From positions 1-38,188 of the forward strand of contig NW_024468333.1 of assembly GCF_002104995.1 (NCBI RefSeq): DNA of 38,188 nucleotides, read 5' to 3'. The stretch comes from Linderina pennispora (lineage: Eukaryota > Kickxellomycota > Kickxellomycetes > Kickxellales > Kickxellaceae). Below are positions 18,193 to 23,460 of the stretch, piece after piece. The first letter of the stretch is position 1, and every line of letters begins with the position of its first letter. The position numbers were made by a program, and so were the translations under genes. A model generated the notes under the pieces. The model was not told where the DNA came from, did no database searches, and saw only the letters and a list, made by a program, of their open reading frames with translations.

Positions 18193-19080
18193 CTAGTGCT
18201 GGATCTGGATAATGGTACCGTCTTGGATCTGGTGGTTGACTCTATCGATGATAGCCTGAGCAAAGTGGGCATCCCCAAAGCCACCCACGCCTGGGAAATC
18301 GTCAAAGCCAGGGAACCGCCCTGGGCCGGCAGGGAAAACAGGGCCAGCAAAACCAATAGGGCCGACTGGATCAGCAGGACCAGGGAAGCCACCAGCACCA
18401 TGGGGGCCCGGCGGACCGGCAAGGCCTTCAGGGCCCGGAGGACCGGCAGGTCCTGGAGCAGGACCAGGGCCAAAGCCAGGCCCCGGAGCGGGACCAGGTC
18501 CTGGAGCAGGACCGATATTAGGCTCAGGGCCAGCGCCAGGTCCCGGAGCAGGACCAGGACCAACGCCAGGTCCCGGAGCAGGACCAGGACCAACGCCAGG
18601 TCCCGGAGCAGGACCAGGACCAACACCAGGTCCTGGAGCAGGACCAGGGCCGGCATCAGGCCCAGGAGCAGGACCAGGTCCCGGAGCGGGACCAACATTA
18701 GGCTCAGGGCCAACACCAGGTCCCGGAGCAGGTCCAGCGCCAGGTCCAGGAGCAGGTCCAACGCCAGGAGCAGGACCGGCACCAGGAGCAGGTCCTGGAC
18801 CAGGACCAATGTTAGGCTCAGGGCCAGCGCCAGGTCCCGGAACAGGTCCAGGGCCAGCGCCAGGGCCAGGAGCAGGTCCAGCTCCAGGTCCCGGAGCAGG
18901 GCCGGCACCGGTATCAGGTCCAGGTCCTGGGGCGGGTCCAGCTCCAACACCGGCGCCAGAGGCTGGGCCAGGACCAACACCAGCGCCTGCCTGAGCAGCA
19001 TCAGCAGGGACGTCATTACCCAGGGGAGCCGCAAGGGCCATCGAGGTAGCGGCAAGGAGGATGAGCGAGATCGAACGCAT
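18193..19080 (-). CDS. Secreted Gly-Pro repeat protein with a collagen-like segment
   Basis: 295 residues from the ATG at 19078-19080. Signal peptide MRSISLILLAATSMALA is followed by about 170 residues made of GP, GA, AP and GV dipeptides (GPGPAPGPGAGP type). A rarer marker GPEPN(I/V)GP occurs three times. Residues about 206-263 change to Gly-X-Y triplets with a few interruptions, as in collagen-like proteins (GPAGPPGPEGLAGPPGPH). The last 32 residues are non-repetitive and mixed polar/hydrophobic (AQAIIDRVNHQIQDGTIIQ), possibly a trimerisation or anchoring tail. A TATA box sits 83 bases upstream. Likely a cell-surface or matrix structural protein; function is inferred. The alternative frames over the repeat are also open but only because the DNA repeat lacks stops. 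Confidence 0.82.
   Translation of the reverse strand: MRSISLILLAATSMALAAPLGNDVPADAAQAGAGVGPGPASGAGVGAGPAPGPGPDTGAGPAPGPGAGPAPGPGAGPGPVPGPGAGPEPNIGPGPGPAPGAGPAPGVGPAPGPGAGPAPGPGVGPEPNVGPAPGPGPAPGPDAGPGPAPGPGVGPGPAPGPGVGPGPAPGPGVGPGPAPGPGAGPEPNIGPAPGPGPAPGPGFGPGPAPGPAGPPGPEGLAGPPGPHGAGGFPGPADPVGPIGFAGPVFPAGPGRFPGFDDFPGVGGFGDAHFAQAIIDRVNHQIQDGTIIQIQH
18511..18834 (-). repeat. Internal tandem DNA repeats in the Gly-Pro gene
   Basis: 18541-18570 and 18571-18600 are identical 30-bp units, and 18601-18630 differs by one base. A second element containing TTAGGCTCAGGGCCA recurs at 18511-18540, 18691-18720 and 18805-18834, giving spacings of 180 and 114 bp. All units are multiples of three, so copy-number changes keep the frame. 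Confidence 0.92.
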
Positions 19081-19823: not shown

Positions 19824-20991
19824 TTAGTCGAACAGACCGAAGCCCATGTCGTCGTCGGACTCCTCCTCCTCCTCGGCAGCGGCCTCCTCAGCGGCAGCGG
19901 CACCAGCAGCGGGGGCAGCGGTGGCGGCGGCGGCGGCAGCAGCAGCGGCAAGGGCCTCGGGGTTAGCGAGCAGCTCCTTGATCTATAGCGATAAGACAGC
20001 GGGTGGGTGTCGTCGTTAGCAAACACAGATGTTTCTGGGGAATGCAGAGTCCAGCAGCATAGCGGGCTGCTTGTGTGATGGCCTCAGGAAAAAATTAGAG
20101 TATTTGGAAATCACAGGCTTCCTCATAGATTGTTCACGTATTTGAACATCATTGGCAGCATACACACAAGCATGGTACAGTGTGGCATAGACAGCAGATA
20201 CTTACCGACTCGGCAGCCTCGATGGTGTAGTCGGTGGCGACCGAAACAGCCAGGATGTCCTTGAACTGGTTGATGAGGATGTGGGGGACAGCGGGCAGAG
20301 CCAGGTAGTTGGTGGCGAGCGAGATGGCGGCGATGGCGGTGATGTTCTCGACAACGCGCTTGATCAGGTCCTCCTCGGTGATGTCCAGAACAGCCGGCGA
20401 GAAAGTGGTGCCGTTGTCGTAGATCTGGGTGACAGACATACCGTAGGTGAAGGGCGAGATGTTCAGCTTGTTGAGCAGGGTAGCCTCGGAAGCACCGACC
20501 TTGTCACCGATGTGGACAAGATGCACGTCCTGGGTGATCTCAATGGTACCACGGGCAATCTTGGTGGGGATACCGAGGGCCTGGAAGAACGAGGTCTGTC
20601 CGGGCTCCATACCAGTGTTACCGGCAGGGACGAACACATCGACCGGGGCAAGAGCACCGGCACGAGCGGGGGCAGCGACACGGTTAGCGATGATGAGCTC
20701 GCGGACCTCCTTGAGGTCGCCGTTGGTGAAGACGAAACCGATGTTGCCCTTGACGAACGGGGCAAGGAACTCCAGAGCCTCGTTGTCCTGACCCAGGATC
20801 TTCAGGGCACGGCGGACCATGGTGTTCTTGCCCATGAGGACCTCAGCCACACCGCGCAGGGAGCGACGGATCATGTGCATCTGCTGCGAACCGACATTGT
20901 CGACGTTGACAACGAAGATCGACTTGTACGAAGTCAGCAGGTTCTCGAGCTTGGTGAAGTAAGCGGCCTTCTTCTCTCCCTTGGACGACAT
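19824..20991 (-). CDS. RPP0: 60S acidic ribosomal protein P0, two exons
   Basis: Exon 1 runs 20991 to 20206 (262 codons) and exon 2 runs 19982 to 19824. Together they encode 314 residues, the usual length of P0. The N-terminal L10-like rRNA-binding domain begins [19 protein letters not shown] and contains [11 protein letters not shown]. The insertion domain and the P1/P2-binding helices follow. Exon 2 supplies the Ala-rich hinge and the conserved acidic tail ending [11 protein letters not shown], which contacts elongation factors and is shared with P1 and P2. P0 anchors the ribosomal stalk at the GTPase centre. The exon 1 frame runs on into the intron and would give a false C-terminus without the acidic tail. 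Codons are very strongly biased, as expected for a ribosomal protein. Confidence 0.96.
19983..20205 (-). other. RPP0 intron (223 nt)
   Basis: The donor GTAAGT follows a complete Ser codon, and the acceptor is CTATAG before ATC AAG GAG. A branch-point candidate CTAAC (20015-20019 on the minus strand) lies about 32 nt before the acceptor. Splicing joins the P0 body to its acidic tail in phase 0. The intron is long for such an intron-poor region and holds the snoRNA candidate. Confidence 0.93.
20081..20156 (-). ncRNA. Intronic box C/D snoRNA candidate targeting 18S rRNA
   Basis: Inside the RPP0 intron, same strand as the host gene. The box C candidate ATGATGT (20146-20152) matches RUGAUGA at six of seven bases. 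Box D CTGA is at 20084-20087. They are closed by a short GCC/GGC stem (20154-20156 with 20081-20083). The 14 nt directly upstream of box D (20088-20101) are the perfect reverse complement of GAAAAAATTAGAGT, a highly conserved segment of eukaryotic 18S rRNA (TTTGAAAAAATTAGAGTG). By the box D+5 rule the target would be the fourth A of the A-run. A degenerate C' box GTGATTT is at 20108-20114; no convincing D' box is seen. From memory, the yeast guide for this area is snR53 (A796); this needs checking. Confidence 0.75.
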
Positions 20992-21692: not shown

Positions 21693-23460
21693 ATGGAGGA
21701 AGAAGAAGGACCGGCGTTCATGTCGTTCAGCGGAGCTCCTGGCGAGGATGTCAGCGAGTTTGTCACCAGCGTCGAAGCATTGCGCAAAAACTTCAAATGG
21801 TCCAGCCAAGTCGCATATTGCTATGCGCGGACAATGATCAAAGGCGACGCGCGCAAGACGTTGCCGCTAGTGCGTACTGCAGCGGACAAGCCGACCGAGA
21901 CCGGCCCTGCGGCCAAGACCAGCAAGCCAGCAGAGGAGGTAGTTGGTCCATCGTCGTGGAACAACCTGAAGGCAGCGCTGCTGCTCGAGTACTCTGATGC
22001 GTATGTGCACGAGCGGCAGCTGAGGGATCTGCTGAGCATCCGGCAGCTCGCGGGGGAGTCTGGGTCCGAGTACTCGGAGAGATTCATCGACACAGTCTCA
22101 ACATTGGTGGTCGATCATGCCCTGGACACGCAGGTGCTGACGCAGCTCTACATGATGGGCCTGCGCAACTTGGCGGTCCGGATGCAGCTGACGCTGCGTC
22201 GGCCCAACAGCATCGACAAGGCCATCGGGTTTGTGGCGCCCGATCAGATGTACAGGATAGCCAAGGTTGTGCCGCTGCTGGCTCCGCCACCGTTGGGGAA
22301 CCTGGACGCCGACACGCCAAACATGGCGGACCAGTTCAGCAAAAGCCACCAGCCCGCCGAGCTTTTGCTGGCCAGCCCAGCGACGTTTGACGAGCCCGAG
22401 AGCTTCGACGGAAGCACGCGAGACATGACACCCGATACGCTGGCATGCACGTTCACACTCCCCGCACTCAAATATGACTCGGACGAAGAAGAGGACGATG
22501 CCGGAGAGGCACTGCGTACAGTTGATGGGAAAAGTGCAGGGATGGTGCGGGGTGCAACATCAAACGGTGCGACGTTTTCGCTGGACGACGACGACGCGGG
22601 GTACTCCAATATGCAGTACAGCAGCGGCAACGGCACTGTTTCTCGGACGCGCGCGCAATCGTCGTCACCGTGGCTCACTGGGCAGCAGCAGACGCAGGGA
22701 CATGGCTCGGGTATGTTTTCGCCTGACACGTACCAAGGCGCCCGGCAGCAGCACCATCGCCAAAGCATGTCGGTATATAGCAGGGCCGAATCTGCCCTGG
22801 GCTCAGAGACCAATGGTGGCTACCAGCTCAACTCGATGCACCGCTACAGCACGCAGCCACGGTCGTCCTCATCGGCGTCGCTGCAGGCCGCGCGCGGGTC
22901 AGTGTTCCGCACATTTGACCTCAGCAGCGGTGGTGAGGACGGGCCATTGTCGGGGCTTCCGCCATACCCGCCCTCGGCAGCTGACCGTGCGCCCTCGGCG
23001 TCTAGCAGCAACGGCGACGGCGAGAAGGACGTCAAGTCTGCGGCTGATCTCAACTGCTTAGCAGATCAGCTCGAGCACCTGTCGAGCATGCTGCGTGTGC
23101 AGTCGGACGCACGGCGTAGGCGGCCCCGGCTGTGCTACAGATGCCGGCAAAAGGGCCATCTGGCGGCCGATTGCCCCGCTGCCGGAAGATATTGTAGTGC
23201 CGAACCAGCAGCAGCGCGAGAAGCTGGGTCTGCCTGTGACTAGCACCCAGCAACAGCAACCGCAGCAGCAGAGCCACGGAACACTTTCGAGGGCCAATAC
23301 GCTGCCGTCGGGTCGGTCATCGAGAGCATCGAGCAGGGCAGGTGTTGCCAACGGCGGTCGCAATAGCGGTAATAGCGCCCAGGGCAATGGCCAGAGCAAT
23401 GGCAGCAGCCGCCGTAGACACACGCATTCGCGCAATCGTCCGGCCAAGCAGGCAGTCTAG
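21693..23460 (+). CDS. Gag-like capsid and CCHC zinc-knuckle protein without pol (one frame break)
   Basis: About 588 residues. The N-terminal part (about 10-185) reads as a retrotransposon-type capsid domain: FSGAPGEDVSEFVTSVEAL, KWSSQVAYCYARTMIKGDAR, then SWNNLKAALLLEY and LRDLLSIRQLAGESGSEY. A long disordered Ser/Asp-rich linker follows. A perfect CX2CX4HX4C zinc knuckle uses C481, C484, H489 and C494 (LCYRCRQKGHLAADC). Removing one C from the CCCC at 23174-23177 joins this to a Gln/Ser-rich tail (PEDIVVPNQQQREKLGLP) ending at 23460. No protease, reverse transcriptase, integrase or LTR is seen on either side; the next gene is a normal dehydrogenase. This suggests a Ty3-type Gag captured as a host gene. 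It could alternatively be a non-autonomous element. Confidence 0.75.

Follow-up and report, generated by a model that had tools for sequence, protein, structure and literature searches.

A candidate box C/D snoRNA with two guide elements in the RPP0 intron of Linderina pennispora

The gene of ribosomal protein P0 (RPP0) in Linderina pennispora is interrupted by an intron, and the locus raises the question of whether this intron encodes a box C/D snoRNA and, if so, which rRNA nucleotides such an RNA would select for 2'-O-methylation. The window (the whole stretch of DNA that was analysed, 38,188 nt of contig C207) had been the subject of a preliminary description, in which the intron was proposed to carry a methylation guide with a perfect 14-nt complement to 18S rRNA. 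The proposal of an intron-encoded box C/D snoRNA in this ribosomal-protein gene is supported here by the boxes, by the register of the guides and by null models, and the element is almost certainly a real snoRNA. The reading preferred, to which a probability of roughly 0.8 is assigned on sequence comparison, is that of a double-guide box C/D snoRNA, encoded in the RPP0 intron and directed at A773 of 18S rRNA and at the U of the 25S A-loop. The snoRNAs of early-diverging fungi (Linderina, Coemansia, Kickxellomycotina) seem to have been little described.

The coordinates of the host gene and of the candidate snoRNA are given in Table 1. The spliced RPP0 product is 314 aa in length and shows three substitutions relative to a 314-aa database protein of L. 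pennispora (P0001); as the spliced product matches this protein in all but these three residues, the gene model indicates that the intron is genuine. The distance from the 5' splice site to box C is 53 nt, and for intronic snoRNAs of Neurospora crassa this distance is described as mainly 41-60 nt (PMC2780460). A distance of 64 nt separates the end of the snoRNA from the branch-like A of the GCTAAC motif, and another 33 nt separates this A from the 3' splice site.

Table 1. Features of RPP0 and of the putative box C/D snoRNA in its intron (positions in the window).
Feature	Position	Strand	Remarks
RPP0 exon 1 (ribosomal protein P0)	20206..20991	minus	262 codons
RPP0 exon 2	19824..19982	minus	52 codons + stop (IKELLANP...GFGLFD); low end counted from 52 residues
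RPP0 intron	19983..20205	minus	223 nt, phase 0, GTAAGT...CTATAG
Likely branch site GCTAAC	20015..20020	minus	assigned from its motif
Putative snoRNA incl. GCC/GGC terminal stem	20081..20156	minus	boxes + weak Rfam C/D matches at 20076-20161
Box C ATGATGT	20146..20152	minus	6/7 to RUGAUGA; final base differs (no last A)
D' guide GTGAACAATCT	20127..20137	minus	predicted 11 bp (1 G-U) with 25S A-loop GGAUUGUUCAC
Box D' ATGA	20123..20126	minus	3/4 to CUGA
Box C' GTGATTT	20108..20114	minus	8 nt past D'; imperfect
D guide AATACTCTAATTTTTTC	20088..20104	minus	predicted 17 bp (1 G-U) with own 18S
Box D CTGA	20084..20087	minus	perfect
External + terminal stem, 5' arm	20153..20172	minus	16 bp in total; bulges on the 5' arm
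External + terminal stem, 3' arm	20068..20083	minus	duplex fold

The box C-like ATGATGT and the box D CTGA that had been reported on the host strand were both identified on the minus strand of the RPP0 intron, and the gap between them, previously given as about 59 nt, measures 58 nt, a spacing that fits a C/D guide. Judged by the criteria for this class of RNA, the intron was found to contain boxes C and D, a C'/D' pair, a terminal stem and guides within the range of 10-21 bp. Two of the features in Table 1, the second guide (next to D' and directed at the U of the 25S A-loop) and the external stem, had escaped the preliminary description. The GCC/GGC terminal stem of the snoRNA together with 13 bp of external stem reaches -23.5 kcal/mol in a duplex fold; equal stability was obtained in 21 of 20,000 shuffles and in 176 of 10,874 pairs of window segments with the same spacing.

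The exact 14-nt complement of 18S claimed earlier, ACTCTAATTTTTTC, is present at 20088-20101 (minus strand), adjoining box D on its upstream side, and the duplex predicted between the D guide and the genome's own 18S is in fact longer, with 17 bp including one G-U pair. When GAAAAAATTAGAGT was searched with up to one mismatch, a single match was returned in the window (mean of 100 shuffles, 0.00), and in the 26.2-Mb assembly this sequence occurs three times, namely in the 18S gene and in both copies of the RPP0 intron. The 18S sequence used (contig C138; L002/L006) matches the Rfam SSU model from 1 to 1831. A 5S rRNA gene was also observed on this rDNA contig, upstream of 18S and on the opposite strand (L006:1672-1790, minus). 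Since the 14-mer starts at position 769 of the own 18S, the nucleotide given by the +5 rule is A773, which agrees with the earlier prediction of the fourth A of the A-run. We take this nucleotide to be yeast A755, using a yeast 18S sequence of 1800 nt with the A-run at 751-764, in which all 16 of the methylated positions compared bear the right letter. To our knowledge, A755 is not among the yeast 18S methylation sites, as judged from these 16. Methylation of 18S A773 under the direction of the D guide is regarded as probable. The same guide also matches over 12 nt an AT-rich stretch of contig L013 (another organism), close to where the LSU match of that contig has its 3' end.

The predicted pairing of the D' guide with the LSU A-loop consists of 10 Watson-Crick pairs and one G-U pair. 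For this comparison the A-loop sequence was taken from the public contig L013, which derives from another organism and is identified as eukaryotic LSU by Rfam; the L. pennispora rDNA contig extends to position 634 of the LSU model (3401 positions) and so ends short of the A-loop. A search of the L. pennispora assembly with a sarcin-ricin pattern, allowing up to one mismatch, gave no match. Um2921, Gm2922 and Psi2923 are described as sequential nucleotides of yeast 25S (PMC9045821), and as GGAUUGUUCACC contains a sole U-G-U, the +5 nucleotide of D' corresponds to yeast U2921, the counterpart of Um2552 in E. coli. Against 18S, the best match of the D' guide was 6 bp, with the +5 nucleotide at 1256. 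From this pairing, it is considered very likely that D' guides the U of the A-loop, a target located in the catalytic centre of the ribosome. Methylation of this nucleotide is listed among the few rRNA methylations common to bacteria, organelles and eukaryotes (PMC8053127). For the C'/D' site of eukaryotes, poor conservation and an uncertain role are reported (PMC8413462). In yeast, methylation of U2921 is reported to persist upon depletion of box C/D function, Spb1 being able to add the mark (PMC9045821); because of this persistence and of the Spb1 route, a mark on the A-loop would on its own be no proof of the guide proposed here.

Conservation was assessed between the two copies of the locus and among P0 proteins of relatives. 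Positions 250-38188 of the window align with C1:3057001-3096600 in five main collinear blocks of 96.5-99.0% identity, with about 3% of positions differing, which suggests that C207 and C1 are two haplotypes of one region. Between these alleles, 0 of 79 positions of the snoRNA core were changed, compared with 8 of 144 in the rest of the intron; the identity of the core is by itself weak evidence, because 37% of the 79-nt stretches in 7901-38188 are likewise unchanged. A 2-nt allelic indel falls within the external stem and leaves its pairing intact (-23.5 kcal/mol, vs -27.0 kcal/mol for the C1 allele).

Among the P0 relatives, 7,997 were scored and the best 120 were listed, and of 23 that were read, seven continue unspliced past the exon end. 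The closest three of these seven are P0028 (Coemansia sp. RSA 2704, 78%), P0030 (C. helicoidea, 78%) and P0040 (metagenomic, 75%). In the tails of all three, which use two reading frames, the codons are compatible with ATGATG followed after 2-6 nt by the 16-nt element CGTGAACAATCTATGA, where compatible refers to degenerate back-translation of the protein and not to DNA letters. Both elements together were found in 1 of 200,000 residue-shuffled tails for each of the three proteins, and the D' element CGTGAACAATCTATGA alone in 23, 1 and 5 of 200,000 for P0028, P0030 and P0040, respectively. The P0030 tail additionally admits ATGATTT as a C' box, 9 nt past D'. These three models appear to be mis-predicted proteins in which a snoRNA-bearing intron has been translated, and mis-spliced protein models in databases are thereby a usable source of intron conservation. 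The more distant P0063, P0093, P0099 and P0101 (66-69%) seem likewise to read through into an intron at this RPP0 site, and their tails fit neither box C nor the D' element. No snoRNA relative was identified among the stretches examined in viral-contig and genome-contig scans, from which 37 loose viral-contig matches were left out; two of the viral-contig stretches have the same sequence and no box C. A region-limited protein search for further read-throughs returned the query alone.

The letters of the D guide were compatible with none of the three tails, of which only that of P0030 tests the guide, the tail of P0028 ending at D' and that of P0040 close to C'. In the 35 nt past D' of P0030, every placement of the 14-nt guide has at least three mismatches, whereas in Linderina both the D guide and box D lie within this distance of D'. 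CTGA is compatible 31 nt past D' in P0030, and the best complement preceding it is 10-11 nt with one G-U pair, which on degenerate letters says little. C. helicoidea thus appears to keep box C, the D' guide, D' and C' but to be without the Linderina D guide at equal spacing; possibly a different guide is present at D in this species, or the guide sits beyond the stop. The D guide, seen only in the two Linderina alleles, may on this misfit be younger than the D' guide. The check on conservation in relatives that had been proposed earlier speaks for box C and the D' guide, both of which fit P0028, P0030 and P0040, and, in the tail of P0030, against the D guide at its Linderina spacing.

According to the reading of a double-guide snoRNA, the RNA would be co-transcribed with RPP0 and then freed by splicing. 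The freed intron would be trimmed to a C/D core closed by the GCC/GGC stem and the 13-bp external stem, and Snu13, Nop56, Nop58 and Nop1 (fibrillarin) would assemble on both box pairs, C/D and C'/D'. Two nucleotides would then be 2'-O-methylated: A773 of 18S (yeast A755), selected by the D guide, and the U of the 25S A-loop (U2921 in yeast), selected by the D' guide. The fuller proposal, that 18S A755 (yeast numbering) is 2'-O-methylated in Linderina by a snoRNA with an old D' guide and a lineage-specific D guide, made in step with P0, is offered tentatively and at somewhat less than even odds. The predicted mark on A755 is open to direct test.

The strongest of the alternatives retains the snoRNA and restricts methylation to the A-loop U, selected through D', with the complement next to D acting as an rRNA chaperone or in some other non-methylating way. 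Such a restriction would account for the relatives fitting just box C and the D' guide and for the misfit of the D guide in the C. helicoidea tail, and it is in line with the 18S sites of N. crassa, Arabidopsis and Dictyostelium discoideum, whose tables, in the parts available, do not list the equivalent of yeast A755 (offsets judged from common sites). It is considered unlikely, since the D guide is long, conforms to the +5 rule and directly adjoins a perfect box D.

Chance resemblance, or the remnant of a dead snoRNA, was addressed with null models. Candidates were defined by a box C with up to one mismatch, a suitably spaced CTGA downstream of it and a guide placed 0-1 nt from D; the targets were the own 18S, 5.8S and first 647 nt of the LSU, with 361 nt of L013, so that the 25S was covered in part. 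Under this definition, the numbers of matches in 100,000 dinucleotide-shuffled introns were 155, 41, 8, 1 and 0 at guide lengths of 10, 11, 12, 13 and 14 nt, respectively. In 277,788 bp of the genome, searched on both strands, the RPP0-intron snoRNA was the sole candidate at 11 and 12 nt and one of two at 10 nt; the C1 copy of the intron was split by a piece boundary in this sample and could hence not be counted. A result in keeping with chance or decay is that Rfam 15 gave no match in the window at gathering score. A permissive search of the intron produced seven matches, one of them a riboswitch on the plus strand and the other six C/D families at 20076-20161 on the minus strand, all six far below their thresholds (the best permissive score was 20.2 bits, against a gathering score of 47 for snoR116). 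The covariance search that had been suggested as a check thus points to the C/D class at the same place and strand in six of seven permissive matches and gives no family at gathering score. With the null models, the agreement of the relatives with box C and D', and two guides in register set against it, an origin by chance or as a remnant is most improbable.

Even less probable is a role in cis for the conserved element, as a structure for the splicing or autoregulation of RPP0 instead of a trans-acting guide. An external stem does exist in the RPP0 intron, and transcripts of ribosomal-protein genes can harbour autoregulatory structures (PMC8216456). The letters that fit in the relatives are, however, those of a box and of a guide that matches an rRNA site in register, and the fold of the whole intron is unremarkable, being no better than that of shuffled sequences (z -0.52).

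The link to snR53 and A796 drawn in the preliminary description did not survive. In the letter-checked yeast 18S, A796 lies in AUAUUAGCAUG, 41 nt downstream of A755 and outside the paired stretch; this, with the A-run at 751-764, makes the predicted site yeast A755, and the snR53 identity was dropped on this numbering. An snR53 orthologue guiding 18S A796 (and U6) is scarcely credible. The general 18S region does match, and the D guide can be paired by hand with GAGAAGAUUAG of U6 over 11 bp with two G-U pairs, but this duplex is far weaker than the 17 bp with 18S, and U6 was rejected as a target. The A selected in U6 would presumably be the one beside A47 (human U6 numbering). The box C/D guides snR53, SnoR53Y and CD11 act in the same 18S neighbourhood, CD11 being likewise listed as intronic, but on another stretch: they select A796, which is Am793 in N. 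crassa and A801 in Arabidopsis, within a UUAGCAUGG context that U6 shares. This context explains the additional pairing with U6 of the snR53 relatives, which is recorded for N. crassa CD11 and Arabidopsis SnoR53Y. The sole U6 match reported in the assembly (C35:22174-22272, minus) is rather divergent, scoring 59.3 bits against a gathering score of 44, and by eye there appear to be inverted repeats nearby.

The 18S target of yeast snR52 is Am420, whereas the D guide described here pairs at A773 (yeast A755). As is predicted for the D' guide here, snR52 also guides Um2921 of the 25S A-loop (PMC11121408, PMC9045821), with Spb1 as a backup for this nucleotide (PMC11121408). The homologue of snR52 in N. 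crassa, CD42, is entered with Am417 as its only target in the available part of its table, and for the A-loop U of Arabidopsis a reliable guide had not been found according to PMC8053127. CD25 of D. discoideum is likewise a C/D snoRNA with two targets, one of them the A-loop U (Um3254); its SSU target is Am612, equal to yeast Am619, as against A755 here (PMC8817022, in part). As regards the host, the fungal introns RPL7/snR59 and NOG2/snR191 also combine a host and a guest that are both ribosome-related, with conserved intron position (PMC8476143, excerpts); hosts and guides differ from those described here, and the available main text of that paper does not mention 'RPP0'. Introns of 27 Drosophila genes for cytoplasmic ribosomal proteins are reported to contain snoRNAs (PMC2246290, in part). 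The class, the intronic setting and the ribosomal-protein host are thus ordinary. In the open-licence literature searched, no description was found of the pairing of U2921 and A755 guides or of residence in RPP0, and another A-loop guide arrangement would show the duty moving between snoRNAs.

Other guide-like sequences were noted in the genome. CATGCTAATCCCTGA occurs at C1:2860322 (L052) and C194:30836 (L053), where CATGCTAATC followed by CCTGA resembles an snR53-type guide with box D, and GTGATGC comes after it; this is a candidate for the true snR53, although no clear box C was seen upstream. A second GTGAACAATC element is present at C1:2956244 (L054) and C188:12967 (L056), preceded at 8 nt by GTGATGG, which resembles box C and has the spacing of the RPP0 snoRNA; it is followed by a D'-like box ending in TGA that differs between the two copies, and no box D was seen. 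The reversed pattern, used as a control in the search for this element, likewise gave two matches, and a second or decayed U2921 guide, or chance, are all possible. With Rfam at E up to 1, no match was obtained on L052 or L054.

Elsewhere in the window, an ORF with repeats of Gly-Pro-Gly-Ala type and, by eye, a signal-peptide-like start is located at 18193-19080 on the minus strand, and an 18 bp difference was observed between its alleles. A Gag-like ORF at 21693-23243 ends near what appears by eye to be a CCHC zinc-knuckle motif (CYRCRQKGHLAADC) and is possibly the remnant of a retroelement.
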